Shown piece by piece: positions 6,518 through 57,067 of a DNA stretch of 64,000 nt (its first letter is position 1; each line of letters starts with the position of its first letter). A program made the translations under genes and the position numbers. The DNA comes from Neoarius graeffei (taxonomy: Eukaryota > Chordata > Actinopteri > Siluriformes > Ariidae): the NCBI RefSeq assembly GCF_027579695.1, contig NC_083590.1:16069656-16133655 (forward strand), given 5' to 3'. The notes below the pieces were generated by a model. It made no database searches, was not told where the DNA came from, and was given only the letters and a program-made list of their open reading frames with translations.

Positions 6518-6706
6518 CCCAGCATCCTGCTCACTAATGTTCAGTCTTTGGACAACAGACTGGATGAGCTGCATGCATGGATTAAACACCAGAGGGACAT
6601 CAGAAACTGCTGTGCTTTGGCGTTCACAGAGACGTGGCTGGAGCCCTGCGTTCCCGACTGTGCAGTCACACCAGAGGGTTTCACTGTTTATGGGAGGGGT
6701 GTGTGA
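6518..6706 (+). pseudogene. LINE endonuclease N-terminal fragment
   Basis: One frame reads PSILLTNVQSLDNRLDEL, then FTETWLEPCVPD and TPEGFTVYGRG. This matches the start of the apurinic endonuclease domain of L2/CR1/Rex-type LINEs: the N-V-Q-S-L block and the E-T-W-L block with the catalytic Glu. About 60 residues remain; nothing before or after continues it. Confidence 0.75.
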
Positions 6707-11639: not shown

Positions 11640-12713
11640 TCACATCATATCGTTCTCTAACAACAAGCAGACCTTTGCAATTGGCCTGTCTATAACACTC
11701 GTCTTTGTTTTCAGGGTCACACTACGTACCACCCCCCTTTTATCCTTCTTCGTGTCAATTACCCTCCCCAACATCCAAGATGCCCTAGGGGCAGTAGGGT
11801 CAGCAATTAACACGACATCACCACATGTATAGTTACGCCTCAATTTCAACCATTTCTGTCTTTCCTGTAAGGTAGGAAGGTATTCCCTAACCCATCTTTT
11901 CCAGAATGTATCTGCCATGTATTGTACCTGTTTCCATCTGCGCTTACTATACATGTCGGTTTTCTGGAATAGACCAGGGGCTAGTGTGGGTTGACCTTTG
12001 AGTAGTAAGAGGTGGTTGGGTGTTAAGGGTTCGAGATCATTGGGGCTATCTGAGATGGTGGTTAGTGGACGACTGTTAACAATTGCTTCGACTTCACAGA
12101 AGAAGGTGTGAAGGGACTCATCATCCAACGTTTGAGTTTGGGTTATGGCCAGGAGTGTTTGCTTCACTTGTCTGATTAACCTTTCCCAGACCCCTCCATA
12201 ATGTGAAGCGGCAGGTGGGTTGTAAATCCATTCTATGCCTCGTTGTTGTAGGGCAATGTGTAGTTTGTGGCTTTCATTCCATTCTTTGACGGCATTCCTG
12301 AGCTCACGATCAGCTGAAATCAGGTTGGTGCCATTATCGGATCGTATTTGCTGAACCTGACCTCTTCTGCTCACAAATCTACTAATTGCGTTGATGCATG
12401 AGTCAGTGTCCAGTGAATTGGCCACTTCTAAATGTACTGCTCTTGTTGCGAGGCATGTGAAAATAACGCCATATCTTTTTATTTCACTTCGTCCCTTTTT
12501 AACTATGATTGGGCCAAAATCTGCGCCAACATTTGTAAAGGGTGGTGAATCAGGCGTTACCCTTTCCTTTGGCAAGTCTGCCATCTTTTGCTCACCTAAG
12601 CGTGCATGTTGTTTTCTGCAGAATACACACTCGGATCTGATCCTTCTGGCCAGGGTGTTTGCTGCCGGTATCCAGTATTGCTGTCTCAGTTTGGCTAACG
12701 TGATTTCTTCCAC
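11640..12713 (-). pseudogene. BEL integrase, C-terminal part of pol, in shifted frame
   Basis: 357 residues. They start within the H2C2 zinc module (KLRQQYWIPAAN, then CVFCRKQHA). The catalytic triad is visible: Asp in VGADFGP, Asp in IRSDNGTNL, Glu in HYGGVWERLIRQVK. It ends in the BEL-specific C-terminal domain (GDVVLIADPTAPRASWMLGR). The His pair of the zinc module lies in the preceding pol frame, so a single-base indel near 12,690-12,713 splits the domain. This is the main lesion in an otherwise young element. Confidence 0.9.
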
Positions 12714-15702
12714 AGTGCCCTAGTTGTTCATGAATGTGTCTGAGCAGCACTTTGGACACGTGGTGGTTTTTTGGAAGGATGGCAGGATGTTTCTGTAATT
12801 CTGGCATGGCCATTCTGCTTAGCCTTCCTCCTGTACGCAGGATTCCATTCTGCAGAATTGGATCGAGCATTCGAATGTGGCTCTGGCGGCTTAGGTTTGC
12901 CTTTTCCTTTTGTAGAGTCTCCATTTCCTCAGGAAACGCTTCCAGTTGAGTGTGTTGAATAATTGCGTTCTCCGCTCTTTTCAGGTCATTCAGTGTCATG
13001 GGTTGTACGATCATGCGTTTTTTCACCTTTTCCATTTTCTTTTCCAACAGGTTTTCCTTTTCAGGTGTGGAGTTCGTCGTGGCAAGTTGGGTAAGTATTT
13101 CCTTTCGTTTAGTACTTAGGTTCTTTAGCAGGTCTTTCAGCTTCAATAGCCATGCGACTGCCCTGGTAAGTTTGGTCCAATTTGAGTGGTGGTGAATAAA
13201 TGCATGCGTAGGAGTGTGCTGCTCCTGCTCCTTCACCACTATGTTCATCATGAGAACATTCCTTTTGACTTCCATGTCATTTTCCAGTTCTGTTTGTGGC
13301 ACGAGTTCGGACTTGGGCCACTCGAATGGCTGGCCCTTCAGGAATTCTGGACCATTGAGCCAAGTTTTTGACTGCAAGAGTGCACTTGCCTTGAGGCCAC
13401 GAGATGCGCAATCTGCCGGATTTTGTTTTGTGTTTATGTATTTCCATTGGTTGATCCTTGTCATCTCTCTGATTGTATTTATTCTATTGGCCACGAATGT
13501 TTTGAACCTTTTGTTCTCGTTCTGAATGTACTTTAGTGTTGAAGCACTGTCAGTCCAGAAGGTGGATGGTTCCAGTTGTAGTTGCAGCTCTGATCGAAGG
13601 AATGCGTCTATTCGTACCGCAAGAACTGCTGCAGTTAGTTCCATTCTTGGCATTGTGGTTTGTTTCAAGGGTGCAACTCTGGATTTCCCCATTATGAATG
13701 AGGTGTGTATTTCATGGCTTGAATTGGTGAGGCGGAGGTAAGTGACACAGCCATAGCCGCTTTCCGAGGCGTCGCTAAAGTGATGAAGCTGAGCAGATGT
13801 TACTGTACCGAAGGTTTTGGGCTTAATGCACCTGTCAACTCTGAGCTCTCCAATAGAGCACAATCCGTCCATCCATTCTTGCCACTGATACAAGTAGTGG
13901 TCTGGTAAGTCTTTGTCCCAGTCATATTCATGCTTACAGAGATCCTGAAGTATGTTTTTTGCAGTGAGTGTGAATGGGCATATGAGTCCGAGTGGGTCGT
14001 ATACTGAAGAGATGACGGAGAGGATTCCCCTACGAGTGAACGGCTGGTCTTTGAGGCTTACTGAAAAGCTGAGCTTGTCACTCTGGATTTGCCACTGTAT
14101 TCCAAGGGTTCGCTCTGTTGGCAGCTCACTGGACTCTAAGTCCAAGGTTTTGACATCACTAGCCCTGTCTGCTTGTGGAATGGAGGCCAAGACTGCTCTG
14201 CTGTTGCTGATCCATTTGTGAAGTCGGAAGCCTCCCATTGAGCAAGCAGTTTCCAACTCTTTGCACAATTGCACGGCGTCAGCTTCTGTAGCCACCGATT
14301 TCAAGCAGTCGTCTACATAGTAGTTACACTTTATTGTATCTACTGTCTCAGGCATGAAGAACTCCTTGAAGTCTTCCGCACATTGTCTTAGGGCAAAAGA
14401 TGCACAGCTTGGGGACGATGATGCGCCAAACAGATGCACTACCATTCGGTGTTCTTTTAGTGGCTGGCTCAGGTCACCATTTGGCCACCATAAGAACCGC
14501 AGAAAGTCCACATGCTTCTCCATCACTCGCACTTGATGAAACATGCTTTCGATGTCTGCCATGATGGCAATGTTCTCTTTTCGGAAACGCAACAGGACAC
14601 CTACCAGGTTGCCAGTCAGGTTCGGGCCTTGGATTAGTTTGTCATTCAAGGACGTTCCTTGGAAAGAGGCTGAACAGTCGAACACCACCCTCAGGGTGCC
14701 TTTCTTCGGATGATGAACAGCATGGTGCGGCAAGTACCACACCTTCCCACTAGAGGGCGCTAGTTCGTTGAATGGGACCACCTCTGCATGATTCTTTTGT
14801 AACATGCTTTCCAAGAAGGTTGTGTATTCACTGTGATACTGTTCATCCTTTTCCAATTTCCTTTTGAGAGACATGACTCGCTGGTGGGCCTGTTGGTAGT
14901 TGTTTGGCATTGTGATATCACTTTCTTTGAAAAGCAAAGGTAAGTAGTAGTGCCCATTTTTAATTTCCTTTGATTTTTCCATAATGGACATAAAACGTTT
15001 ATCTTCTACTGACATCTCGCTCTTCTCTTCAGCTGCCAGTTCTGGGAAATCCTGCTGATACTGCTTCATCAGCAGGTCATTCACATCCCTTATGGATATG
15101 CGGTTTACAGTACATGAGTGAGTTCCATGCCCTTCACAAGTTGCTTCATGCATGAGGCCGTTGACGACCCACCCTAGAGGTGTTCTCACAGCATAGGGCC
15201 CAGTACCCTCACTGTTAATTACCTCCCAGGGCTCCATAACCTTTGCAGCGTTTGTGCCTATAAGCAACTCTATATCGGCATCCAGGTGTGGAATTGTCAC
15301 GTTGTGTAAGTATGTCCATTTTTCCAGGTATTCCTGTTTGGGTATATGATGTTTCGAGATGGGTAAGTGTGTTTGGGTACAAGTTGGTGGCAGCTTGTGG
15401 TATTGCACACCATCGATGCTGCTTACCTCGAGGCCAGAGACGAGACTACTGTAGATTCTCCTTTCCTGTCCTAACGTACAGAGCATGATTGAGACCTCCT
15501 TGCCAGGGATGTTCAGTTTGCTTCTCAATGAGTCTGTACAGAATGTGGCTGAGCTGCCGGGATCTAAAAACGCATGTGTGAGCACCATCTCGTCACTGTT
15601 GGACAACCTCACCTTCACAGGTACTATGGCTAGGGAGTACTGGTCAGAGGTACCGGCCCCCATTGGGTCGCTATTGTCCACTGACACCATGGCATTACTC
15701 AA
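12592..15702 (-). CDS. BEL/Pao pol: protease, RT, RNase H, start of integrase
   Basis: A 1036-residue frame. The protease is near residue 47, where the active-site motif reads LDPGSS (DPGS rather than DSGS). RT spans about 250-560 with YVDD at about residues 462-465 (bases 14308-14319). The Pao-type region and RNase H follow (FSDASESGYGC near 650, WTDSASTLKYI near 740). At the end come the first His residues of the integrase zinc module (HEQLGHCGRNH), after which the frame runs out-of-phase and stops. The open frame continues upstream of the first in-frame start, past the gag stop, with HPTVLHI, the sequence that normally follows the BEL zinc knuckles. So gag and pol are offset by one base there. 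Confidence 0.93.
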   Translation of the reverse strand: MSNAMVSVDNSDPMGAGTSDQYSLAIVPVKVRLSNSDEMVLTHAFLDPGSSATFCTDSLRSKLNIPGKEVSIMLCTLGQERRIYSSLVSGLEVSSIDGVQYHKLPPTCTQTHLPISKHHIPKQEYLEKWTYLHNVTIPHLDADIELLIGTNAAKVMEPWEVINSEGTGPYAVRTPLGWVVNGLMHEATCEGHGTHSCTVNRISIRDVNDLLMKQYQQDFPELAAEEKSEMSVEDKRFMSIMEKSKEIKNGHYYLPLLFKESDITMPNNYQQAHQRVMSLKRKLEKDEQYHSEYTTFLESMLQKNHAEVVPFNELAPSSGKVWYLPHHAVHHPKKGTLRVVFDCSASFQGTSLNDKLIQGPNLTGNLVGVLLRFRKENIAIMADIESMFHQVRVMEKHVDFLRFLWWPNGDLSQPLKEHRMVVHLFGASSSPSCASFALRQCAEDFKEFFMPETVDTIKCNYYVDDCLKSVATEADAVQLCKELETACSMGGFRLHKWISNSRAVLASIPQADRASDVKTLDLESSELPTERTLGIQWQIQSDKLSFSVSLKDQPFTRRGILSVISSVYDPLGLICPFTLTAKNILQDLCKHEYDWDKDLPDHYLYQWQEWMDGLCSIGELRVDRCIKPKTFGTVTSAQLHHFSDASESGYGCVTYLRLTNSSHEIHTSFIMGKSRVAPLKQTTMPRMELTAAVLAVRIDAFLRSELQLQLEPSTFWTDSASTLKYIQNENKRFKTFVANRINTIREMTRINQWKYINTKQNPADCASRGLKASALLQSKTWLNGPEFLKGQPFEWPKSELVPQTELENDMEVKRNVLMMNIVVKEQEQHTPTHAFIHHHSNWTKLTRAVAWLLKLKDLLKNLSTKRKEILTQLATTNSTPEKENLLEKKMEKVKKRMIVQPMTLNDLKRAENAIIQHTQLEAFPEEMETLQKEKANLSRQSHIRMLDPILQNGILRTGGRLSRMAMPELQKHPAILPKNHHVSKVLLRHIHEQLGHCGRNHVSQTETAILDTGSKHPGQKDQIRVCILQKTTCTLR

Positions 15703-15784
15703 GGTGGTGTGGCTACTTCTGACCTTGCTGCTCTCCTTTCTAGTGGGAATGTGAAGGACTGTTGGATGCGGGAGTGAGCAGGTT

Positions 15785-17725
15785 TCACGTCATTCGGTTT
15801 GTGCACGTTTTCCCAAGATGGCCCTTCGAGAGGCAACCAAAACACATTCCCTGGGCCTTCAGATACTGAATTTTCTCTGTGTTGGGCTTGGACCGAAAAG
15901 TTTCACATGTGTCAAGATTGTGATTTCCATTACAGTACATGCATGAGTCCATATTGGTAGGTGGAAGTTGTTTGCGAGTGTGTGAGTCATAGCCTTTGAC
16001 CACAGGAGTAGCCACTGTGGTGGCAAAGCTGGGGCTGCTACGGGGTTTGGCCTTCACCTGTAGCTTGGACTTTGGTGCTACTTTGGTGTCGGTTGGGAAC
16101 TGGATGTCCCCGAAGACCGGATCTAGCAACACCCTAGCCTGCTTCTCCACAAACTCCACTAAGTCCTTGTATTTTGCCCTCTGGGCCTTTTCCTCCATGC
16201 TGTACACAACTCCACGCCACCTGTCTCTGAGCTTGAATGGAAGCTTTGAAACCAGTAGCCTCAAATTACTTGAATTCTCCAGTTCTCTAAGTCCATCGAT
16301 ATCGGACATTGTATTAAAACAGCTACGTAAAAACAATGCATACGAACGCAAGTCCTTTCCATGCTCTGGCTTTATGACTAGCCAGTTCAAGGCCTTGTTC
16401 ATATATGTTGAGGCTATTCTGTAGCTGTTGCCAAAGTTGTAGGCTAATTGTTCTTTGGCTTCTTTATATGCCACAGTAGGATCCATATGTAGGAAGCTGG
16501 TGACTAGAGCTCTAGGTTCACCTTTGGTGTACTGTTGCAAATAGTACAGACGGTCATCAGAGTTCTCAGTTTTCCCTTCCACAAACTGTTCAAATGCCTT
16601 GATAAATGTCTTGTACTCCAGTGGGTCTCCATCAAATACCGGTATTTCTCTATCCGGTAGAAGAGAAAGTGCCTGCTGTTTAACCAGCAATGTTGTGATT
16701 TCTGTATGTTTTTTCAGAACATCAGTTACATTCACGTCATTAACATTAGAACTGGTTGCATTGCCACTGTTTGTGGTGGTGTTGTTACTTGCACTGGGAC
16801 TGACTGCATTTGGATTGTCTGTGGGGGCATGCTGATGTGCACTGGCACCGGCTACTTGGGCATCTGTACTGTCAATTCCGTCATTTTGTTGCGCACGGGT
16901 TATGTGGGCATGCTGTTGTGTTATGTTTTGGACAGTTTGTTGCACAGTTTCGCTATGTGGAGTTACTTGTGCTCGCTTTATTCGTTGCGCAGTGGCAGGT
17001 ATATTGTATTCTGTGGGCGTGCCGAATTTGTGTAGCCCTGACAGAGAGCGCAAATCCTCTGCTTGTTTATATACTTCCCGCTTTGCCTCGGCGGCAGCGA
17101 GTTCGGAGCTTAGTGCGAGCCTCTGCCTGCGCGCTTGGATCTGTGCCTTTCTTTTTGCCATATCGTTTGCCATATCGGCCATGATCATTGCCTCTTCCAT
17201 GTCGAGGTCGATCCGTTTGCTCATGGCATCCAGCTTGGCCCTAGTGGCCGCGCACTCGGCTTCTGCCTTTAATTGTGCATTCGGGACATGAGACGCGCGG
17301 CTTACGTGGCTCGGGTCTTTAGCACTACGAGCTGTCTGCGATACACTGTCCTCTGGCTTTACATCCTTTTCCTTTTCCACTTCCTCATCGCCATCCTCCT
17401 TCCGTATCCATTCTAAAGTTTCATCCAGAAAGTCTTTGTTCAATTTATATTTTGGTTCATACCAGTCTCTTTGGTCTGCGTCCTTCTCGTCTTCGTCGTC
17501 TATTAAACTCTGCACTGTTAATTGTATGCTCCTAAATTCAACTAAAAATTTATCAAATAACTCAAGTTGGGAATTTACTGTGTCTTTGTCTTGGCCAGCT
17601 TCTATGAGGTCATTAATTTCGTTTCTTTTTCGAGTGAGTACGCCAAGTTTCCCTCTACGGGTTCCCATTAATTTGCTTAACTCTCTCTCCTTATCATAAC
17701 CAGTTTCAGTTGGACCGTCAGACAT
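15785..17725 (-). CDS. BEL/Pao gag
   Basis: 646 residues, intact from ATG to stop. The N-terminus is charged and coiled-coil-like (ELSKLMGTRRGKLGVL), followed by a long helical basic/acidic stretch and a Thr/Asn/Ala-rich linker. The capsid-like DUF1759-type core follows at about residues 370-560 (PVFDGDPLEYKTFIKAFEQF). Two CCHC-like zinc knuckles lie at the C-terminus: CMYCNGNHNLDTC, with one residue fewer than usual before His, and CFGCLSKGHLGKTC. It would package the element RNA. The stop codon lies right after the second knuckle, where related elements usually continue into pol. Confidence 0.93.
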   Translation of the reverse strand: MSDGPTETGYDKERELSKLMGTRRGKLGVLTRKRNEINDLIEAGQDKDTVNSQLELFDKFLVEFRSIQLTVQSLIDDEDEKDADQRDWYEPKYKLNKDFLDETLEWIRKEDGDEEVEKEKDVKPEDSVSQTARSAKDPSHVSRASHVPNAQLKAEAECAATRAKLDAMSKRIDLDMEEAMIMADMANDMAKRKAQIQARRQRLALSSELAAAEAKREVYKQAEDLRSLSGLHKFGTPTEYNIPATAQRIKRAQVTPHSETVQQTVQNITQQHAHITRAQQNDGIDSTDAQVAGASAHQHAPTDNPNAVSPSASNNTTTNSGNATSSNVNDVNVTDVLKKHTEITTLLVKQQALSLLPDREIPVFDGDPLEYKTFIKAFEQFVEGKTENSDDRLYYLQQYTKGEPRALVTSFLHMDPTVAYKEAKEQLAYNFGNSYRIASTYMNKALNWLVIKPEHGKDLRSYALFLRSCFNTMSDIDGLRELENSSNLRLLVSKLPFKLRDRWRGVVYSMEEKAQRAKYKDLVEFVEKQARVLLDPVFGDIQFPTDTKVAPKSKLQVKAKPRSSPSFATTVATPVVKGYDSHTRKQLPPTNMDSCMYCNGNHNLDTCETFRSKPNTEKIQYLKAQGMCFGCLSKGHLGKTCTNRMT

Positions 17726-19023: not shown

Positions 19024-20070
19024 ACACACGCGTCTTGTGCATAATCATTAAAACGACTCTTACTCTGAATTCTCTTGCTTCTTAATTTGAGTCTTTCGCA
19101 TGTACAGTTCATTTAGATGTGAAATTTATTTTTCTCCAGTTTTAATAGCATGTTTTTTTTCTAATTTTTAGGAGTGTAATTCATTCAGTCCAAGAGATCA
19201 GTGTCCAGGAATCAGCAGTGAGCCCATGAGCTTTGTGTCCATACACTAATGTTCAAAAATGGTGTGATCTGTGATCTGGACACAGATAATGTGACCCCAC
19301 CCTCAGAAAAGCGGTAAGCTGCCATGTTCTAATATTTTAGTCATTAACTGTTCATATCTGAAATATGGAGTGAGGATATCTGAAGAGAGAAACTTAACTT
19401 ATACTGAGAATGAAAAGTTTAGTCGCCACTTGAAAAAAATGCCAGATTCTGTTCATTGTTAGTAAAATTATGTTCTTATAAAATTACAAATGCAGTCGTA
19501 TGAGACAGTACACTAAAGCCATGATACGAATCACATCCCAATCCAGGCTTCACAGGACCAGACTGATGAGACGGTGCTGACACAAAACATTACATTTTAA
19601 AGTGTAATACATTTATTTTGATTTGTAAAGGCAGCAAATCAAACCACTGCAATATCAATACAGTCGGGGTGTTAAACCTGTGTCAAATCCAGGCATTTAT
19701 TTTAACCTGCATTTCAGACCGTGGTCAATCCAGCCGTGATAGAAACTGGAGTGCACGTATGTATATACAGTGGTTTACTGTAACTACCTTCAGATGGCTC
19801 CACTACAGATCTGCTGTGAAATTCTGGATAGTGTGAAAATGTTAAAGGAGAACTGAAATCATTTTTAAACTTGCTTTATTTCTTAATTAATGTGTTATTC
19901 AGTTACGTTTTCAGTTTTAGTAACCTTATATCGTGACTCGTATTGGCAACTAATTGCAATAAATTATTATATTTATCGGCCTATTCGTTTTTTAGCCATG
20001 TTGAATTTAGTTCGTTTGGTCTACGGCAGGCGTCGCTTATCCACGCAATCTTCACGAGACTTGTGTGTTA
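19024..20070. other. Unassigned intergenic stretch
   Basis: No supported gene. One exon-like segment at about 19172-19313 has AG and GT borders but stops in the relevant frames (see rejected items). Confidence 0.4.
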
Positions 20071-20141
20071 GGGTTTTGCTGGGATTCGAACCCGGGTCGC
20101 TGGTGTAGTGATCCAGCAAGCCCCCACTAGGCCACCAGGGG
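20071..20141 (-). repeat. tRNA-like head of a repeat, not a functional tRNA
   Basis: On the minus strand, TGGCCTAGTGG resembles a tRNA A box and GGTTCGAATCC is a good B box, about 45 bp apart. The ends do not pair into an acceptor stem. It abuts the repeat at 20144-20679, so it is most likely a tRNA-derived repeat part. Confidence 0.55.
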
Positions 20142-20143
20142 AA

Positions 20144-20679
20144 TGACTCAAGTGCAGAGGCATGAGGCGAAAGTAGAGTAGAAAAAGGCAGTTTATTTAC
20201 AATGCAAAAAATCCAAAAATCCAAGGAGAAAAAAATACGTAAAATCCAACGCTCAGAAGATATAAGGGAAAATAAAATATCCAACAGTTCAAAGTCCAAA
20301 AATCAGAAAAGAAAAGGCAAAATTGCAGAATGCTCAGAAGATCCAAAAATGTTAAGTACAACGTCCAAAGAAAGCAAAAATACCAAAAAACACTAGGGCA
20401 TAAGCAAGGTTCACGGGACAGAGGTAACTAACCATAAGTAGCACAAAGACTCCGTGACTAGGGACTGAACTGAGGGAGTATATATACACACAAACTAAAT
20501 AGGACACAGGTGACAATAATGAGGACTAGGCGGGGCACAAGGCACATGGAAAAACAAAGGCACATGGTTGTCAAAACAAAAACACAGAAACAGTGGCGGC
20601 CTCTAGAGGCCAAAACAAACAAGACAAGATAAGGAAATAAGAGCGGCCTCTAGAGGCCAAAACAGTCCCAGTCCTAACA
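20144..20679 (-). repeat. Probable solo LTR or LTR-like repeat
   Basis: On the minus strand it starts TGTTAGGACTGGGACTG and carries two GGCCTCTAGAGGCCGC palindromic blocks, a TATATA-containing stretch near 20,480, and an A-rich interior. TG at the start and AT-rich promoter-like sequence suggest an LTR, but no partner or target duplication is seen. Confidence 0.45.
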
Positions 20680-21039
20680 TTGTGCAAGACTTCGAAACGT
20701 GAAGTGTCAGCCAGGTGTCAGTGCCACCATTTTGAAAACTGTTTTCCAAATGAAATATTGCACAAAAATGAGTTTAAATGATCACTGTCTACTTTTTTCA
20801 GACTTTCCTGATTGCTATCAAAACAAAAAAAAAAACTTCCAGCTTGATTACATCAGCATTCAAAAGAGGGCGCGCGTGTCTTTTGACAACGTTGGCAGAT
20901 GTTGCCCTGTGTCCCAAATCACTTCCGACTCACTATATAGGGCACTATATAGTGGGGATGCCATTTTGTAGTAGTAATTCCCTATTGAGGTATTTCACCT
21001 GACGTCACAGGGTCACGTGATGCCCCGGTGTCCACCATT

Positions 21040-21490
21040 TTGGACGGCAAGCTAGCTAATGTCAACAACAGTAGCTAGTATGTTACTGTAGCAATATTTA
21101 CGTTCAGTCATTTGGATGACTGTTAAAACCTTTCAGTCTCAAGTTTTTCCTTTACTGGATTTACTAGTTTACTGAGCTAGCGCGCGATGGCTCCCGGCCC
21201 GGCCGGAGAGCGCGCGATGGCTCCCGGCCCGGCCGGAGAGCGCGCGATGGCTCCCGGCCCGGCCGGAGAGCGCGCGATGGCTCCCGGCCCGGCCGGAGAG
21301 CGCGCGATGGCTCCCGGCCCGGCCGGAGAGCGCGCGATGGCTCCCGGCTTGGCCGAGCGCGCTAGCTCAGTAAACTAGTAAATCCAGTAAAGGAAAAACT
21401 TGAGACTGAAAGGTTTTAACAGTCATCCAAATGACTGAACGTAAATATTGCTACAGTAACATACCAGCTACGATGTTGTTGACATTAGCT
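21040..21490. repeat. ~135-bp inverted repeat flanking a minisatellite
   Basis: Left arm about 21040-21184 and right arm about 21354-21490 are near-perfect inverted copies: both contain the GTTACTGTAGCAATATTTACG block and the TAGTTTACTGAGCTAGCGCGC end. The loop is the 30-bp repeat array, so the whole can fold into a hairpin about 450 nt long. Confidence 0.92.
21181..21360. repeat. 30-bp GC-rich minisatellite, six units
   Basis: Five identical units of CGCGCGATGG-CTCCCGGCCCGGCCGGAGAG plus a diverged sixth that runs into the right hairpin arm. The unit length is a multiple of three, so an open frame repeats a ten-residue MAPGPAGERA peptide; this is a consequence of the repeat, not evidence for a gene. 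Confidence 0.97.
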
Positions 21491-21689
21491 AGTGCTAACA
21501 GCTAGCTGCTAGTACACTGCTACAACACAGACACCGACCCTAATAATACAGTTCTTAGTCATTGCCTGGTAACAGCAAATTTATAACGGGCCATGTCTCA
21601 ACAGACTAAGAAGTTATTTCAATGACATTTAATAACATTTTGTTTATCCTGAGGACCGAAAGTAAATGAAAATGTGAACAAACCTTAGC

Positions 21690-22110
21690 TGTAATCAGAT
21701 GGCGACCACCGGCTCCAGGGACGACCCACTGATGTAGGCATGTTACCCAGCCTGACACAAAATATTTGTAGGCATCCAAACTCTTATACGCTTTCAGATC
21801 AATACCTGTGTATGGCGATGGGTTTTTAACGACATAGATATACAGATCCTGTGGGCCGAAGTCAGGTAAAGACGAGGGCTTCGTGTACTTCCGTACGTCA
21901 GTGAACAATCCTGGTGGAAGCAGGTAAACATCGTTCTCTAAGCCTGCTAACCTCAATTTTTGCAAATACCTCTCCCTCTGCTCGCCCTGTAAATGCCCTA
22001 CATTGCTGGATAGTGAAGGTGTTTTCTGCATCTCGCTCCTTTTTCTTTTATGTTTTTCGTTTGTCGCCTTCCTCGCATTCAAACTGATTCGAGCCGTGCC
22101 GTCCAAAATG
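21690..22110 (-). pseudogene. Transposon-borne accessory exon (LKAYKSLDAY type)
   Basis: Minus-strand frame with a basic start (EKHKRKRSEMQK), GEQRERYLQKLRLAG, and then NPSPYTGIDLKAYKSLDAYK followed by YFVSGWVTC and LITAKV at a GTTTGT splice donor. The S-P-Y-T, LKAYKSL, F-x-x-G-W-V pattern is one I associate with repetitive fish and invertebrate proteins that continue into SWIM zinc-finger and YqaJ-type nuclease domains (family memory). No following exon is found inside the element, so it is a remnant. The element's left half, where it would continue, is occupied by the hairpin. Confidence 0.5.
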
Positions 22111-22195
22111 GCAGCATCACATGACTTGGTCACGTGAGTGAAATACCTCAATATAGGGAGTAGTGAACAAGTGAGCGATTTCGGACACAGGGTTG

Positions 22196-22649
22196 GTCAC
22201 TTTGACTTCCGCTGTATGTTTTACTTCCGTCCTACGATGTCTCGCACAGGTCTCAACGAATCTCATTTATGGCCTTTGCTTTGACATATGGACATGTATT
22301 ACAGAGCATATTTCAAACACTCTTAACTTGCTATAGCAGTGACAATACAGCTATCAAAAATTAATTCCTATATTTAATAAAATGAGAAATGGCATTTTGA
22401 TTCTATATATTTGCCTTAAGTTCTCCTTTAAGCAGTCGTGTTCTAGAGGCTGTTTCAGTTTTATTGTTTCCAAGTTCACGCGGGCCGAATGAAACGAGGC
22501 TGTGGGCCTGGAGTTTGACCCCATGTGCCATAACACTTCCTTCTGATGAGCTTCACTTTCTGGACTGTTCAGTCAGCGTGCTTTGAGGCAGTTCGGTTTC
22601 CACTCTATAACTCTGTGAGCTACGACCTTTGGTGCTGCCACCTAGTGTG
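22196..22649. other. Unassigned spacer
   Basis: No coding region, repeat end or RNA recognised. Confidence 0.4.
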
Positions 22650-26212: not shown

Positions 26213-26540
26213 TATGTCTTCATTTTAATAAAGTCACTGAATGGTTTCCATATCCCTTCACACATGTTCAGTTGTTTTTTTAAAAAGTGCTATTCTCTCC
26301 ATTGGCATGCATTGTGCCATACATTTAAAGGGGAAGAAAGGGCAATATATAGAGTAAATATAACAATAAAACACAGATTGACGAACCTTATTCAAAACTT
26401 ACAAAAGTTTTTTGTTCTAAGGTTGAAAAGTTATAGTGTTTTGAAAGTAGCTCGAGCAAACTATTTTCACAGTTTGAACAGGCCGCCATGATATTAATTT
26501 TATCCAATCAGAATGCACGTTCATTTTCTCTGCGTAACAC

Positions 26541-27156
26541 TTATGACGTATGTATGTGCCCAGTTGTAAATAAACAATCTGGCTCATTGAGGTTGGAAAT
26601 ACCTGTTTCTGCTTCTTGTGACGATTTCGCAAGTCCACGGGTGGCGCCTATCTCATTGCAGCAAATAAATTCGGCTGGACTCGTGAGCAACTCCGTCACA
26701 TTTTCCGCACGAGCACCATGCTGTGTCACCTGCACGCAGCTGCTCTGGTCAGCATCAGTATCGGTTTCATCCTCGCCGGGGTGTTCTGTAAAGCCTACTG
26801 CACATGCACGAAGCCTACTGCGCATGCGCAGAACAATATTGCGTGAAATACTCACCGATTTTTTCTATCAGCCCAGCTGATCGGTAGGACAAAACTACTG
26901 TTGAATTTTCCTACCCTCCTGGATTTCGCACATGCGCAGTAGGCTTGGTAGGACAAATCCAAGAGGTAGGATAACTTTACAGAACACCCACATCCGAGCT
27001 TTCTTCTCTTATTTCGTCATCACCGGAGTCGAGAGTACCTCTCCTAGGTTCAAACTGGTACCCTTCTAAGCCATAGCTTGCTTGCAGTGTGTCTTGCGGG
27101 ATCTCTTTGTACGATTCGACAGAGCTGTCGCTTTCAGTTGATGCGCCCGACGCCAT
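26541..27156 (-). pseudogene. YQFEP-type acidic N-terminal exon with CCNEI motif
   Basis: From the ATG at 27156: MASGASTESDSSVESYK, then YGLEGYQFEPRR, an acidic run, then (after the inserted MITE) DETDTDADQS, a Cys-containing stretch and EFICCNEIG. The YxFEP start, acidic linker and CC-x-E-I are the order seen in fish proteins annotated as P2X7 C-terminal-domain-like, whose zinc-binding module has W-C-x-C...CCQEI (from memory). The Cys pattern here is incomplete. A MITE at 26779-26989 interrupts it and supplies a stop. The plus-strand element at 49001 carries a related exon. Confidence 0.5.
26779..26989. mobile_element. Small MITE with GGGTGTTCTGTAAAG ends
   Basis: 211 bp, inverted ends GGGTGTTCTGTAAAG, internal copies of CCTACTGCGCATGCGCAG on both strands. 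It sits inside the YQFEP exon. The left part of a second copy is at 49924-50812, itself split by a hAT element. Confidence 0.8.
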
Positions 27157-27465
27157 AATTACATGCTTCTCTCCTAGTGCAGTGGGTAGGGCTGACGTCA
27201 CGGTCTTTTAAAAATGACGACTCTTATGTGGTTTAGCGTACCGACTATTATATTTACAATTACCAAGATATTTCGTTGTTTTCTAGTACATAAATTTGAT
27301 AGAATACTTAAGAATACGTTACTTTGTCACATCAGGAACCGTATATATTGCCCTTTCTTCCCCTTTAATCCAAGCTCCTATTGTGGGTGCTGTTTCTTTC
27401 TTCCGGTTCAGTGCAATCAGGCACTTTGCCTGTAGTTTAGCAAAATTAATAAATGTGTACTCTAT

Positions 27466-40933: not shown

Positions 40934-41172
40934 GTAAGATCAAACCCAACACCATGACTGTGACACTGACGCACGGGTATTATAAACCTCTCTGCTGTTA
41001 TTTCATAGAGACTGATTAGATTATAGAAAACATACAGGAGAATAAAACAAATGCACAGTGAGAACATCATAAAGAACTCTCTGTGGAAACCAGTCAGAAA
41101 AACTGTGATCTTAAACTGTAATAATTGGAGCCCATGTCTCACCATGTCTTCCTACTTCACCCTGTCACACAG

Positions 41173-42960
41173 ACACGCCCCAGGATCTGCTGCTGGAAAT
41201 GAAGTCCAGAAAAAGTTCAAATTAAATCTGATGAAGAAGTTTCAGTGTTTAAATGAAGTGATAATAAAGCTGGAAAACCGAGTGCTCCTGAATGAGATCT
41301 ACACAGAGCTCTACATCACAGAGGGAGACAGTGGAGACGTCAATAAAGAACATGAGGTGAGACAGATCGAGGCAGCGTCCAGGAGAAAAATAGAGGAAAC
41401 ACCAGTCAAATGCAACGACATCTTTAAGCCCTTATCTGAAGAAGATGAACCCATCAGAACTGTAGTGACAAAGGGAGTGGCTGGTATCGGAAAAACAGTC
41501 TCTGTGCAGAAGTTCATTGTGGACTGGGCTGAAGGGAAAGCAAATCAGGACGTCCCCCTCATATTTCCACTTCCTTTCAGAGAGCTGAATCTGATGAAGG
41601 ACCAAAAACTGAGTCTGATGGAGCTCCTTCATGTCTATTTTAAGGAAACCAAAGAAACAGAAATGTCCAAGTTGGAAAAGGTTCTGTTCATTTTTGATGG
41701 ATTGGACGAGTGTCGTTTCCCTCTGGATTTCCAGAACACAGTGAGAGTGTGTGATGTAACTGAATCAGCATCAGTGCACGTGCTGCTGATAAACCTGATC
41801 AAAGGGAATCTGCTTCCCTCTGCTCTCATCTGGATCACCTCCCGACCAGCAGCAGCTGATCAAATCCCCTCTGAGTATGTCCATCGAGTTACAGAGGTAC
41901 GAGGGTTCAATGACCCTCAGAAGGAGGAGTACTTCAGGAAGAGGGTCAGTGATCAGAGCCTGGCCGAGAACATCATCACACACCTGAAGTCATTAAGAAG
42001 TCTCTACATCATGTGTCACATCCCAGTCTTCTGCTGGATTTCAGCCGCTGTTCTCGAGAGAATGTTGGGTGAAGCAGAGAGTGGAGATATCCCCAAGACT
42101 CTGACTCAAATGTACACACACTTCCTCATCATTCAGACAAACATCATTAGAGGAAAGTACTCAAAGAAACAGAAGCATGATAAAAAAATGTTTCTCAAAC
42201 TGGGAAAACTGGCTTTTGAGCAGCTGGAGAAAGGCAACCTGATCTTCTATGAGGAAGACCTGAGAGTGTGTGGCATTGATGTGACAGAAGCAGCAGTGTA
42301 CTCCGGTGTGTGTACGCAGATCTTCAGAGAGGAGGTTGGGCTTCACCAGAGTAAAGTGTACTGCTTTGTTCATCTGAGTGTTCAGGAGCATCTCGCAGCT
42401 CTGTATGTGCATCTGACCTTCATGAAGGAAAAGAGAAATGTTCTTGATCAGAGTCAGTCCAGTAATTTGTATTTTTGGTCCTTTAAGACAATTTCAGATG
42501 TACACAGGAGTGCTGTAGATCAGACCTTAAAAAGTCAGACTGGACATCTGGATCTGTTCCTCCGTTTTCTTCTGGGTCTCTCACTGAAGTCCAATCAGAA
42601 ACTCTTGCATGCCTTAGTAACACAGACAGGAAGTAGCTCCCGTACAGGAAAGAGGAAAACAGTTCAGTACATAAAGGAGAAGATCAGTGAAAATCTTCCT
42701 GCAGAAAAATCCATCAATCTGTTCCACTGTCTGAATGAACTGGGTGAAGATTCTCTAGTGGAGGAAATCCAACGCTACCTGAAATCTGGAAAACAAAGTG
42801 AACTCTCTCCTTCACAGTGGTCTGCTCTGGTGTTTGTGTTACTGACTTCAGCACAGGAGCTGGAGGAGTTTGACCTGAGTAAATATACCAGGACAGGGAA
42901 GATACCAGAGTGGGTTCTTGTGAAGGTGATGCCTGTGATTGCAGCATCCAGAAAAGCAAT
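41173..42960 (+). pseudogene. NLR FISNA-NACHT exon (fish NLR-C type), 1-nt frameshift at start
   Basis: Begins after CACACAG with TPQDLLLEM in the frame dictated by the previous exon, but the downstream frame ([18 protein letters not shown] onward) needs one more base, so about one G is lost near 41,200. After that the exon is open to its donor. Fish-specific FISNA region: [25 protein letters not shown] ATPase: Walker A GVAGIGKT (about 41,474-41,497), Walker [14 protein letters not shown] (about 41,680), then [12 protein letters not shown] (sensor). Helical region: [31 protein letters not shown]. It ends SRKA at GCAAT/GTAAGT. NACHT proteins are cytosolic innate sensors that oligomerise with ATP. 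The large first exon and lack of introns inside FISNA-NACHT are normal for this family. Confidence 0.92.
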
Positions 42961-42964
42961 GTAA

Positions 42965-48996: not shown

Positions 48997-49237
48997 TTAA
49001 AGGATATGGGACATGGATTTTTTTCTGGGTATAATTATATATAAAGGACATAAGAAATGCCATCTAAATCACTGCAGGGCATCAAAAATGTGAAAATCAT
49101 CACATTATTCAAGTTTTTTTATACATCAGCGTAAAACAAAGATTCGTTAATGAGCTAGGTGGTCACGTGACCCGTGACGTAACAAAAACTTTCCAAGGAG
49201 CCAGCACTTGGGAATCTAATGTAAACAGGTTACCGAA

Positions 49238-49431
49238 ATGGACACCATCGACAGTGATATTCCCGATGTTTCACAGAGATGTGAAGTTAGACCTTATCAA
49301 TTCGAACCAATAGCTGGAAATTCACATGAACATGGATCTTGTCTTTACTCTGACGGGTCAGATGATTCTGAGAGTGAAAGTTCATTCAGTCCCCATGAAA
49401 CTGAAAGCGGTCGGCTCGATAACACTTCCTG
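49238..49431 (+). pseudogene. YQFEP-type acidic first exon
   Basis: MDTIDSDIPDVSQRCEVRPY then QFEP, an Asp/Ser/Glu-rich linker (SDGSDDSESESSF), and RLDNTSW at a CCTG/GTAAGT donor. In related fish proteins the RLxNxxW is followed by C-x-C-x2-C in the next exon (P2X7 C-terminal-type zinc module, from memory); no such exon is found in the 200-500 bp after the donor. Open frame and clean donor, but the gene is incomplete. Similar in plan to the exon at 27156. Confidence 0.55.
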
Positions 49432-49923
49432 GTAAGTTAAAAACAATTTTGCTCAAAGGCTAATGATCTGTTGAAAGAAGTATTATTTTTGTATCATACA
49501 TTGAAAGTTCATCATAGATCTAGCTAAAGTCCGTTGCAAGCTAGTTTTTTTTTGCTGATATTTTTCGAGATTGATTGAGATACAATGCTTCCAGAGTCCG
49601 AGATGAAAACATTCAAAATGGCGAAACGAGTCAGAATTATGATAATCAATAATTGATACACCCAAAATTATAATACTAATCCTTACCTCGGCTTTCAGTC
49701 ACTTAGCGAATGCACCTCGTGGTGGCCGTAGCACTTCGGGTTTCACTCCGCTGTCTTGTTCCTGAATTGGGACGTTGGGAACGGCTCCATCTTTAAGTAG
49801 CCTCTTAAATTTGGCTTGGCAATTAATATCGCTCAGTACCTGAGTATTAATGTTGAAAGAATCCTCAGTGAAATGGTCCAAACACAGTTTGTGGGAAACA
49901 GTAGGTGCAAAGTTTTTTCAACA

Positions 49924-50670
49924 GGTGTTCTGTAAAGTTATCCTACCTCTTGGATTTGTCCTACTAAGCCTACTGCGCATTAGTGATGGGAATTTCGGCT
50001 CTTTTTCGGGAGCCGGCTCTTTTGGCTCTTCTTACTATAAGGAGCCGGCTCTTTCGGCTCCCAAACGGCTCCTGAGGTTTTATTTTTGATTTAATTGCTG
50101 CAATTAACTAGTTAATTAATTACATTATTATTTATATTTTATCAATAGGATGTTTTCCATTTTATTTTTTAGTTTTTGTAGCCATTGTAAAGCTTTGTAA
50201 AGTATAGCAGTGTAACAATGTTCTAGCTATAGAAATAAAACTTACCAATTAATACATTATTTTCTCACAAACATAATGCAAAACTGTGTTATATTACCAA
50301 TATAAAATACACAGAAGACATCAACTGTTTATCCTTTATGGCTTTATTTCACACTCGACCTTGAACAAAATGCCACAAAATAAATTAGGAAGTATAAATC
50401 AGGCCTAAAAAACTATGAAGCAAAGTTGGAAATTATTTTAACAAACACAGAACAATGTGCAACAAAATATTTTATTAAATAAAATATTAGACTCCTCTCC
50501 CCTGTGCTCCACAGCTTTAAGCATTACACCAATTTTCGTATTTTCGCAGCTGTGAATGACATCAACCCCCCCAACCAAAAAAAGTAGGCGTACACCATGC
50601 TACTTTTTTTCCTTTGAATGGTAATAGACAACACAAAGACGCAATCGGACAGCAACTTTTTTTGTGAAAG

Positions 50671-50701
<31 letters not shown>

Positions 50702-50812
50702 CACCTAAGGACAAAAAAACTAATTCGGCTCCCCAACTCGGCTCCCACCGAAGAGCCGGCTCTTTGAACCGGATCGTTCGCGACCAACACATCACTACTG
50801 CGCATGCGCAGG
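49924..50812. mobile_element. Partial copy of the GTGTTCTGTAAAG MITE, split by hAT
   Basis: GGTGTTCTGTAAAGTTATCC to TACTGCGCAT (49924-49980) resumes after the hAT with CTGCGCATGCGCAG (to about 50812). It matches one half of the MITE at 26779-26989; the other end is missing. Confidence 0.7.
49981..50797. mobile_element. Non-autonomous hAT (GAGCCGGCTC family), copy 1
   Basis: CTGCGCAT is duplicated exactly (49973-49980, 50798-50805). Ends TAGTGATGGGAAT and ACACATCACTA, subterminal GAGCCGGCTC palindromes on both sides, and a long CT run near 50,672. Copy 2 in opposite orientation lies at 53653-54342. Confidence 0.94.
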
Positions 50813-51216
50813 TGAGCCCACACTTTCCTCAGCTTCGGGTCCTTGGGGAATGCAAAAAAACTTACTCCAGGGCATTTCCCATTGGAATTATTGCAACCAT
50901 AAGCAGCACAATACACCATGATGTTCAATGTACGTTAAAGACTATAAAAACAATTTTCTTGTCATCCACTTCTCCATTCATCTACCCGCTTCTGCTGTGC
51001 CCGAAAGTTTTTGTGACATATGATCACGTGACAGCGGCTCTTCCGGTTGTAGAAAATGCATATCGGAAGTCGAGCAGAAATTATAATCATCACGAATATA
51101 ACGATTTTGCTGAATTTAATAGATAATTTTTTATTTGTTGATGCAATTAATTCATATTTTTAATGGAAAGAAACTGATATAGCATGCATTTATGTTTCAT
51201 GTCCCATATCCTTTAA

Positions 51217-53545: not shown

Positions 53546-54418
53546 CTGAAATGAAATGATCACTGCAAAGTCTGGAGTACTCTGGCTCCCAATCCTGTCT
53601 CTTCACAGCTGCAATCCATTTGGCCCTCTTGTCTGGGTCAGTAGGAAACCGGTAGTGATGTGTCGGTCGCGAACGATCCGGTTCAAAGAGCCGGCTCTTT
53701 GAAGTGAACGACGGAAGCCGGCTCTTCGGTGGGAGCCGAGTTGGGGAGCCGAATTAGTTTTTTTGTCCTTAGGTGCCTCAGAGAGAGAGAGAGACTTTCA
53801 CAAAAAAAGTTGCTGTCCGATTGCATCTTTGTGTTGTCTATTACCATTCAAAGGAAAAAAAGTAGCATGGTGTATGCCTACTTTTTTTGGTTGGGGGGGT
53901 TGATGTCATTCACAGCTGCGAAAATACGAAAATTGGTGTAATGCGTAAAGCTGTGGAGCGCAGGGGAGAGGAGTCGGTGAGGCACCTGAGGAGGGGAAAA
54001 TCAGCTGTGTATTTTATATTGGTAATATAACACAGTTTTGCATTATGTTTGTGAGAAAATAATTTATTAATTGGTAAGTAAGTTTTATTTCTATAGCTAG
54101 AACATTATTACACTGCTATACTTTACAAAGCTTTACAATGGCTACAAAAACTAAAAAATGAAATGGAAAACATCCTATTGATAAAATATAAATAATAATT
54201 TAATTAATTAACTAGTTAATTGCAGCAATTAAATCAAAAATAAAATCTCAGGAGCCGTTTGGGAGCTGAAAGAGCCGGCTCCTTATAGTAAGAAGAGCCA
54301 AAAGAGCCGGCTCCCGAAAAAGAGCCGAAATTCCCATCACTAGAAACCGGTAAAAGGAGCGTCCTGCACGCTGTCCCTGTCTGTTGTGGCAGCCCACAGC
54401 ACAACAAGCAAACACCAT
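53546..54418 (-). pseudogene. THAP-domain exon, split by hAT copy 2
   Basis: From the ATG at 54418: MVFACCAVGCHNRQGQRAG (Cys ligands). After the hAT and its duplicated GAAACCGG it continues with FPTDPDKRAKWIAAVKRQD (conserved Pro, Trp) and SRLCSDHFIS (C-x2-H), ending at a CAG/GTTAGT donor (53545 downward). With the hAT and one duplication copy ignored, the frame is continuous and all THAP signature residues are present. This makes the TGAGG family a THAP-transposase family. Confidence 0.88.
53653..54342. mobile_element. Non-autonomous hAT (GAGCCGGCTC family), copy 2
   Basis: GAAACCGG is duplicated exactly (53645-53652, 54343-54350). Same family as 49981-50797 in reverse orientation but about 130 bp shorter, mainly from a shorter GA run (near 53,780) and a deletion in the AT-rich middle. 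Confidence 0.95.
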
Positions 54419-55710: not shown

Positions 55711-56409
55711 CTCGCGCATATGACGGAGTGCGTGAGGGAGACTGCGCGTGTGCCTGTTCATGTAGCGCATGCTAGACAAAGAGCATCCTGATTGGCCTAC
55801 AGACATCAAAACTCATTTCAGGGAGGTGTCATGACCCCCCCCCCCCCCCGGATGGGGAAAAAGTCATGCGTCACGACACCTCCCTGAAATGAGTTTCTGC
55901 AGGTTGGGATGTCTGCAAGGAGCACCTGGCAACACACACACACATGCACACACAGTTAGCCAAGTAGCTCATCATGAGTATCTCCATAAAACTCCTTCAG
56001 CACTGGGCTGTGATCATTTCAGTCGCTCACTAATTAGAGAACAAATCAAATGTCTGATCTGTTCAGATAAATATGACTCTGCCTCGAACTCTGCCTGCTT
56101 CATCTAAACCTGACTTTTGAAACTCTTTTCCTTTCTCCTCTTATAAACATTTGAGATCAGACTCTTATTTCCTGATTTGGTGATCAGATTTGATGTTGCG
56201 TGTTTATCCCATGTGTCAGTGATGACGTATGCAGCAGAAAACTCAAATCCAAACAGCTCGAGCTGAATTACTGTTACAGCATTTCAGTGTATTGTCGACT
56301 CGGAGTTTGTACTTTTGTCATTTATGAAAATGAAATGGTGCAGTGAAAGATTTGAGGACCTGTTTGATCATTTGTGTGAGTTTATTATGTATTATTTTAT
56401 TTCCTTCAG
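55711..56409. other. NLR intron with a hairpin
   Basis: Arms AACTCATTTCAGGGAGGTGTC (55810-55830) and the inverse (55873-55894) enclose a run of about 16 C's (55,834-55,850). AGACATC/GATGTCT outer ends extend the pairing. No coding region until the LRR exon. Confidence 0.8.
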
Positions 56410-56604
56410 GATCAGTTGTGATACAATTAAAGGGAGAAGCGCTGAAGCTCTGGTCTCAGTGCTCAACTCAGAAACCTCCAGTCTGAGAGAACTGCATCTG
56501 ACTGTGAAGACACTGGATCTGACTGGGAATAAACTAGAAGACTCAGGAGTGAAGCGTCTCTGTGCTGTACTGGAGAATCCTCACTGTAAAGTGGAGACAC
56601 TGGG
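56410..56604 (+). CDS. NLR LRR exon 1, with 21-nt insertion
   Basis: Follows a CTTCAG acceptor and joins the NACHT exon in phase (AT + G), giving SRKAM-ISCDTIKGRSAEAL. The LRR unit reads LVSVLNSETSSLRELHL, then LDLTGNKLEDSGVKRLC and NPHCKVETL, the standard fish NLR ribonuclease-inhibitor-type repeat. At 195 nt it is 21 nt longer than the usual 174-nt LRR exon: seven extra residues (about HLTVKTL) duplicate the start of the beta-strand segment. Frame is kept. LRRs are thought to sense ligand or keep the NACHT inactive. Confidence 0.88.
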
Positions 56605-57067
56605 GTAAGATCATCTCTCTGAGAGTCACAATAACTCACTAAAGCAGCAGTTAATAGTTGTATACAGTGTTGTTTATCAATTAAAATTTTCTGTAAAAGT
56701 AAAACATGCAGAACAAATATATTAGCCATGAAGTGATCATTTCTCCTCAGAGTCACTTTTAGTTTCAAGAAATAATTTAAATGATTTTACAATTAAATTT
56801 GTGATCATTAAAAATCCAGTCAAGCAGAGATAAATTCTACAAAACTGACTCTTCACTTAAACCTTTAAATTATTGACTTTTGCTGAATCATTTGCACCTC
56901 GAGTAAACTTAATGTCAGTAACAGTGGTAATGTTTGACTCATTATTAATAATAGCTTGTGATTGGTGAAGAGAATAGAGACAGTCCAACATGAGAGACAT
57001 CATCTTCACAACCACTATTACACCAAGATGAAAATCTGTTGAAGTGTGTGTCATTGTGTCTCTGCAG

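Follow-up and report, generated by a model that had tools for sequence, protein, structure and literature searches.

A shortened Kolobok element of Neoarius graeffei that keeps the first exons of converging KolX and THAP genes

Which transposon left a TTAA-flanked stretch of Neoarius graeffei DNA in which the remnants of two genes point at one another, and do the two encoded proteins belong together? The stretch lies in the window analysed here, 64,000 nt of contig NC_083590.1 (16,069,656–16,133,655; assembly GCF_027579695.1, 2.34 Gb in 38 contigs). A first-pass annotation had noted inverted ends, a TTAA duplication and two opposed gene remnants at 49001–51212, one remnant encoding a THAP domain and the other an acidic protein with the peptide YQFEP. 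These observations hold: a perfect 15-bp terminal inverted repeat (TIR) sits inside TTAA, and the acidic exon, which we assign to the KolX gene introduced below, converges on the THAP exon. The element, hereafter element 1, measures 2,220 bp (48997–51216), with 2,182 nt between 19-nt arms made up of TTAA and 15 bp, and comprises the following features.

48997–49015, + strand: left TTAA (48997–49000) and 15-bp TIR AGGATATGGGACATG (49001–49015)
49238–49431, + strand: KolX exon 1 (YQFEP/acidic), open, MDTIDSD...RPYQFEP...DNTSW
49699–49917, − strand: THAP C-terminal half, AVPNVP box, then a stop (Pfam THAP E 9e-4)
49924–49980, no strand assigned: 57-nt foreign segment sharing 98% identity with part of an insert in element 2
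49981–50797, no strand assigned: hAT-like element inside the THAP exon, 8-bp target site duplication CTGCGCAT at 49973–49980 and 50798–50805
50806–50919, − strand: THAP N-terminal half, MVYCAAYGCNN...KVWAHLR, start at 50919 (Pfam THAP E 3.3e-7)
51198–51216, − strand: right TIR (51198–51212), the exact complement of AGGATATGGGACATG, and TTAA (51213–51216)

The 19-mer at the ends matches just two sites in the 64-kb window at up to three mismatches, and not one of 100 shuffled sequences had a pair of matches. In the six frames of the window YQFEP is present at just two places (chance expectation 0.025, the mean of 40 simulated sequences), once in element 1 and once in a second TTAA element, element 2. 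KolX exon 1 of element 1 has no Pfam match and terminates in a W codon at the splice donor TCCTG/GTAAGT, where the slash marks the exon boundary. The C-terminal THAP half scored 20.4 bits, slightly below the Pfam cut-off of 23.9. Between the two THAP halves lie the 57-nt foreign segment and the hAT-like element, so labelled on the strength of its termini and the size of its target duplication; a second copy, 87–97% identical, stands 3 kb away at 53652–54342. Because the THAP exon is interrupted and carries a stop, and the catalytic part and the KolX zinc exons are absent, the copy is dead. Element 1 is a shortened, non-autonomous Kolobok remnant that keeps the first exon of each gene.

In the parts of Kojima & Bao (2022; PMC9587614) covered here, Kolobok elements are characterised by TTAA targets, termini of the form 5'-RR and YY-3', and a DDD/E transposase; the Kol0 lineage carries KolX, a second protein similar to the cytoplasmic ballast of P2X7. 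Element 1, element 2 and a fuller element elsewhere in the genome, L083, all have a TTAA duplication at both ends and AG...CT termini, in agreement with RR...YY. The P2X7-ballast-like second gene of Kol0 is present at two further loci, L081 and L082, while element 1 retains its exon 1 alone. The resemblance to the Kol0/KolX system (Kolobok-1_XT type), as far as those parts describe it, thus covers TTAA, the RR...YY ends, the DDD/E transposase and the P2X7-ballast-like protein; unlike the described system, element 1 is internally deleted and high-copy. The first-pass annotation had proposed a two-gene, Kolobok-like system in which an acidic, P2X7-C-like protein partners the THAP transposase. 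In structure that proposal is right, but it is not new, since the KolX of the Kol0 lineage is already described in the covered parts of PMC9587614. Measured against those parts and the open-licence literature, the convergent gene order, an intron at W/CxCxxC and the co-occurrence count are additions in detail. Within the open-licence literature YQFEP turned up in an unrelated context only, and PMC9587614, in the parts covered, was the sole source found for the idea that the P2X7 tail is a transposon gene.

Frog elements offer a second comparison. The covered part of Hikosaka & Konishi (2018; PMC6004289) describes Kolobok transposases with a THAP domain (C2CH, P/W/F residues and an AVPTIF-like box), as well as the Xenopus T2-MITE and XKol elements, non-autonomous, flanked by TTAA and with ends of the AGGRR type, that presumably rely on such transposases; KolX is named nowhere in the main text (0 occurrences). 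The T2-MITE A3 end given there, AGGACATG, resembles the AGGACATGGGACATG end of an element 1 subfamily. Unlike T2-MITE and XKol as they appear in that part, copies of element 1 retain exon 1 of each gene. In a subfamily with ends TTAAAGGACATGGGACATG (L039-type copies) the THAP exon is uninterrupted (THAP E 7.7e-18) and extends to a likely splice donor. Read by eye in the uninterrupted exon, the C2CH and P/W/F residues are present. The AVPTIF-like box after THAP is only in part conserved in the element 1 family, as AVPNVP; its L082 counterpart is AIPTVF.

Element 1 belongs to a large family. With up to two mismatches allowed, its end pattern matched 1628 and 1619 sites on the two strands; the reversed control gave 5 and 4. 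Among the first 100 end sites listed, 37 adjacent pairs delimit elements of 1.36–4.03 kb, 20 of them 1.61–1.66 kb long, and 26 sites are unpaired. Over the left 440 nt, the median divergence from the majority sequence is 2.0% (59 rows including duplicates, with four rows above 25% that are apparently misaligned); that of the window copy is 1.8%. The 4.0-kb L009 was considered as an autonomous copy and rejected, as the length between its ends contains a nested 614-aa ORF resembling reverse transcriptase. Scans of IMG/VR with the element 1 end and the THAP half gave no relative (38 peptide-pattern stretches, none confirmed), and a phage collection gave no match.

To what extent do the two exons travel together within this family? 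Our two-ended sample held 58 loci, 55 of them distinct, with 14 picked by ends, 20 by THAP and 21 by KolX; the end-picked set drew on the first 8 sites and on 12 of the 37 pairs, chosen to span the lengths, with one overlap between them. Of the 55 distinct copies, 46 have the two exons in convergent order, 9 have KolX (YQFEP) without THAP, and none has THAP without KolX. Among copies picked by ends alone, KolX exon 1 and THAP were both found in 14 of 14. The nine copies without detectable THAP (L061, L065, L070, L074, L075, L079, L057, L059 and L080) all stem from the KolX-picked set; six of them measure 1.45–1.48 kb and may form a subfamily. When one-ended loci are counted too, with about 1.5 kb of DNA on either side, 28 of 30 THAP-picked loci had KolX exon 1 and 18 of 30 KolX-picked loci had a THAP piece. 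Two end-picked loci with one end each, L005 and L008, showed neither exon within 1.5 kb. The first-pass annotation had suggested checking whether both genes always occur together, and had named intact elements lacking the YQFEP gene as evidence against its proposal. Since no fully intact element was found among the genome copies read, the second point bears on deleted or decayed copies alone: none of the 55 two-ended copies lacked YQFEP, and two THAP-picked, one-ended loci (L040 and L042) had no YQFEP exon in about 1.5 kb on either side.

The THAP exon of the family leads into a transposase. At locus L084 (C2:7187100–7197099), the right end matches that of the element 1 family exactly and the THAP exon is 98% identical; later exons on the same strand resemble the L082 transposase, with identities of 32% (E 9e-15) and 48% (E 3e-16). 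By eye, these exons contain the catalytic landmarks GDARCDSPG and then TDRHSMV...DVWH; the E expected as third catalytic residue could not be made out there. The transposase assignment draws on the L082 comparison, because the exons had no Pfam transposase match above cut-off (MULE, E 0.02, fell below it). Elsewhere in the assembly, nothing exceeds 59% identity to the exon with the second D, with all 79 candidates scored. Neither KolX nor a left end was found in the 17.5 kb formed by L084 and the 7.5 kb beyond it (L085), and nowhere in this family did a copy turn up in which both genes extend past exon 1.

Further exons of both genes are found in L082 and L083, members of a separate family in which the two genes face each other; the two copies are 97–99% identical in three aligned blocks. 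L083 measures 8,116 bp between and including its TTAA-flanked ends, with AG...CT termini, 21-nt arms with 2 differences and exons of both genes, and L082 has its right end only. On the transposase side, THAP (E 1.5e-12) is followed by matches to PF20700 in one exon (E 3.2e-7) and, under the cut-off, in another (E 2.5e-4). A DDD/E core can be read by eye as DGRADSPG, TDRHVSI...DIWH and VESFH, the last with the third residue, and includes the C/DxxH between the second D and E; this core is deleted from the window copy. The first catalytic exon of L083 contains a stop. The KolX gene has an exon 1 with PYALEP that ends NTDW, an exon 2 that begins CTCTHC and an exon 3 with PSCAVSKIRATYP. In L082, exon 3 matches Pfam P2RX7_C (E 3.1e-10) and exon 2 has no match; the joined exons 2 and 3 align with P2X7 in the PDB at E 0.007, the alignment falling in exon 3. 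The intron between exons 1 and 2 is in phase 2 and splits the W codon right before CxCxxC, and the KolX donor of element 1 agrees with it in position and phase. This intron is not universal: in L081, where it is missing, YLFEP, an acidic stretch and PWCRCGQC share a single open frame (P2RX7_C E 3.6e-8), which joins the zinc domain directly with the YxFEP part. L081 had no TTAA end pair under the criteria used. The matches in L081 and L082 support the P2X7-C-like nature ascribed to the acidic protein. The KolX zinc exon of the element 1 family itself was never recovered from the copies read; the matching donor suggests that its KolX probably continued into a similar domain.

The zinc motif of P2X7 was defined by Rump et al. 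(2020; PMC7016195), in whose covered part two host genes, P2X7 and nanor, carry the domain and the ballast of rat P2X7 binds a guanine nucleotide. KolX shares with the P2X7 tail and nanor, as presented there, the cysteine clusters WCxCx2C, CC and PSC...IR..YP; unlike P2X7, it is transposon-encoded and has no P2X channel part. When L082 KolX is aligned with the GDP contacts of the rat protein, R546 and R578 are kept, Y stands for H547, and R574 and K583 are absent. The latter two residues are also missing from fish P2X7 and nanor according to the same part of that paper.

The second TTAA element had likewise been flagged by the first-pass annotation, with ends unlike those of element 1 and a similar YQFEP exon, and both features are confirmed. 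Element 2 is a member of another Kolobok-like family, whose end pattern matched 606 and 643 sites genome-wide against 0 and 0 for the control. Its features are listed here.

26325–27368, no strand assigned: element 2, ends AGGGGAAGAAAGGGCAATATATA, 27-nt perfect arms including TTAA, AG...CT termini
26649–26718, − strand: KolX zinc-domain remnant, WCSCGKC at 26698–26718 and, in another frame, ICCNEI at 26649–26666
26779–26989, no strand assigned: nested 211-bp element, ends GGGTGTTCTGTAAAG, splitting the KolX gene
26992–27156, − strand: KolX exon 1, MASGAST...YQFEP...EESSD, with YQFEP at 27046–27060

WCSCGKC and ICCNEI lie downstream of YQFEP in a broken frame, beyond the nested 211-bp element. 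WCxCxxC occurs once in the window (0.075 expected), as does the CC pattern of ICCNEI (0.2 expected), and WCSCGKC fits the cluster 1 motif WCxCx2C of the P2X7 zinc domain as given in the covered part of PMC7016195. The broken pieces have no Pfam or PDB match, so that the link to P2X7 depended on the motif until L081 and L082 were read. A genome search with KolX exon 1 of element 2 scored 150 of 1606 candidates. The only two copies of this family fetched, L086 and L087 (798 and 796 bp), have KolX exon 1 and a THAP start in convergent order, with THAP E values of 2.8e-4 and 1.6e-4, slightly under the Pfam cut-off. We rejected a coding role for the 146-aa frames of this family, which past the YQFEP exon cross the reversed THAP start (2 copies). 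The same small foreign element (end GGTGTTCTGTAAAG) sits in a coding exon of both element 1 (49924–49980) and element 2 (26779–26989); in the element 1 family it also occurs in L011 and L015, and there it seems to substitute for a few THAP codons.

We then asked how KolX and transposase genes are placed relative to each other across the genome. A Pfam P2RX7_C search gave 124 matches among the best 150 scored of 245 candidates, and none in 14 control genomes. As PF20700 found only 4 loci, two of them beside P2RX7_C matches (L082 and L083), the L082 transposase exon was taken as query instead. It gave 88 matches which, with C9:30045270 from a search with the L084 exon, merged to 66 loci when same-strand matches within 3 kb were counted as one locus. 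KolX matches merged to at least 168 loci, the two lists covering 150 scored of 245 and 150 of 204 candidates and 21 rows of the first having been added to the second by eye. KolX lies within 12 kb of at least 37 of the 66 transposase loci and within 6 kb of at least 30, where random placement predicts 0.11 and 0.06; the 37 of 66 replaces a first count of 24 of 65 made before further KolX matches and one transposase row were added. Every one of the 37 linked pairs is convergent, with no tandem or divergent arrangement. Among the KolX matches listed, none falls within 12 kb of the other 29 transposase loci, that of L084 included, and just 37 of the 168 KolX loci partner a transposase match. The absence of KolX is weak evidence either way, because the KolX lists are incomplete and many loci are fragments.

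Eleven of the 29 KolX-free loci lie on C1 at 86–96 Mb. In the wider interval of 85–96 Mb, these eleven transposase-like loci cluster with six KolX-tail loci, five of which have 101-aa frames, and the cluster may represent domesticated or amplified copies.

Taken as a whole, we consider it very probable that element 1 belongs, as an internally deleted copy, to a two-gene, KolX-bearing Kolobok family of the Kol0 kind. Its full-length ancestor would have carried two genes converging from opposite ends. On the left, KolX would encode an acidic N-terminus containing YxFEP and, as in the P2X7 tail, a zinc ballast domain; on the right, the transposase would start with THAP and contain a DDE core. A central deletion would have left exon 1 of each gene between intact ends. 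Such deleted copies were presumably mobilised in trans, by cut-and-paste into TTAA, and amplified to over a thousand; the hAT insertion into element 1 would be later. By analogy with related families, the THAP domain may recognise the ends and the DDE core carry out cutting and insertion at TTAA; KolX would most simply be an accessory protein of the transposase-end complex. The two-gene reading of the first-pass annotation finds its support in the paired exons of the element 1 family, the passage from THAP to transposase in L084, the facing genes of L082 and L083, and the linked loci. The partnership of the two proteins is itself suggested by their linkage.

Whether KolX takes a direct part in transposition we judge an evenly balanced question. 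It could instead be a passenger that travels with the transposase and renders some other service, in expression or host interaction, outside the transposition reaction. This reading is consistent with the 29 transposase loci lacking KolX nearby among the matches listed, with KolX pieces having no Pfam match above cut-off besides P2RX7_C, and with the Kolobok lineages in the covered parts of PMC9587614 that have different accessory proteins or a transposase only. Against a passenger stands the invariable convergence of the linked loci even though the transposase exon is mostly 28–53% identical to the L082 query, a constancy across divergent loci that suggests long shared maintenance. We regard the passenger role as a tenable but less than even prospect.

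One specific form of direct role is suggested by analogy with the P element. In the covered part of PMC7776569, the P element and THAP9 transposases combine an N-terminal THAP domain with an RNase H-fold DDE core, and the P-element transposase requires GTP in a domain inserted in that core. The Kolobok transposase here resembles them, as described there, in its N-terminal THAP and DDE core; unlike the P element, it has a TTAA rather than an 8-bp target duplication and a separate KolX gene. No GTP-binding-domain match was among the Pfam matches listed for the L082 transposase exons. KolX might conceivably supply in trans a P-element-like guanine-nucleotide module that positions the transposon ends, which would make the P2X7 receptor domain a captured transposition cofactor. 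We think this very improbable; of the five contact residues in rat, L082 KolX lacks two, as fish P2X7 does, which argues against it. A descent of the P2X7 ballast from KolX has been proposed, in the parts of PMC9587614 covered.

A piggyBac-type TTAA element that acquired a KolX-like gene is a very unlikely source. piggyBac also targets TTAA, and the covered parts of PMC9587614 report a few piggyBac families that encode a protein like the KolX C-terminus. Those proteins mostly lack the KolX cysteines, which are present here; the ends are AG...CT as in Kolobok, and the linked transposases carry THAP and PF20700 and a Kolobok-like core with DxxH. The non-Kolobok ends and piggyBac transposase beside KolX that such an origin predicts were not found at the loci read. 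That the YQFEP exon belongs to a host gene caught between the ends by chance, as the first-pass annotation had allowed, has a negligible probability and is refuted by its copy number and its location inside the ends: host genes with the zinc-tail domain exist (P2X7 and nanor, in the part of PMC7016195 covered), but all 150 scored of 1854 candidate copies of the exon are 100% identical in protein, and it is present in every one of the 34 distinct two-ended copies selected, independently of YQFEP, through their ends or THAP. One P2RX7_C match with a single long exon, at C18:32477945, could be host P2X7.

The counts amount to a one-genome quantitative test of the idea that the zinc tail of P2X7, an immune receptor, is a transposon gene. 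Linkage that is frequent and always convergent across divergent copies points to a maintained two-protein system, and near-complete elements such as L083 provide material for asking what the original role of the ballast domain was.

Several other features of the window deserve mention. A third TTAA-flanked stretch (19842–22431) has AG ends and AGGAGAACT on both sides (9 nt). Its ORF at 21609–22196 (− strand), which has no Pfam match, reads ...SPYTGIDLKAYKSLDAY... and may resemble proteins of YqaJ-bearing transposons; a similar fragment lies at 6583–6918 of L084. Within the same stretch, 21123–21419 is a 297-bp segment with inverted ends whose centre consists of six copies of a 30-bp GC-rich repeat. 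A BEL/Pao-type retrotransposon occupies 11643–15789 (− strand), with Peptidase_A17 and DUF5641 matches and weaker ones to reverse transcriptase and integrase. At 41027–42961 (+ strand), a 645-aa ORF with FISNA, NACHT, NOD2_WH and NLRC4_HD2 domains represents an exon of a fish NLR gene, and an LRR match slightly under cut-off is found at 56267–56605.
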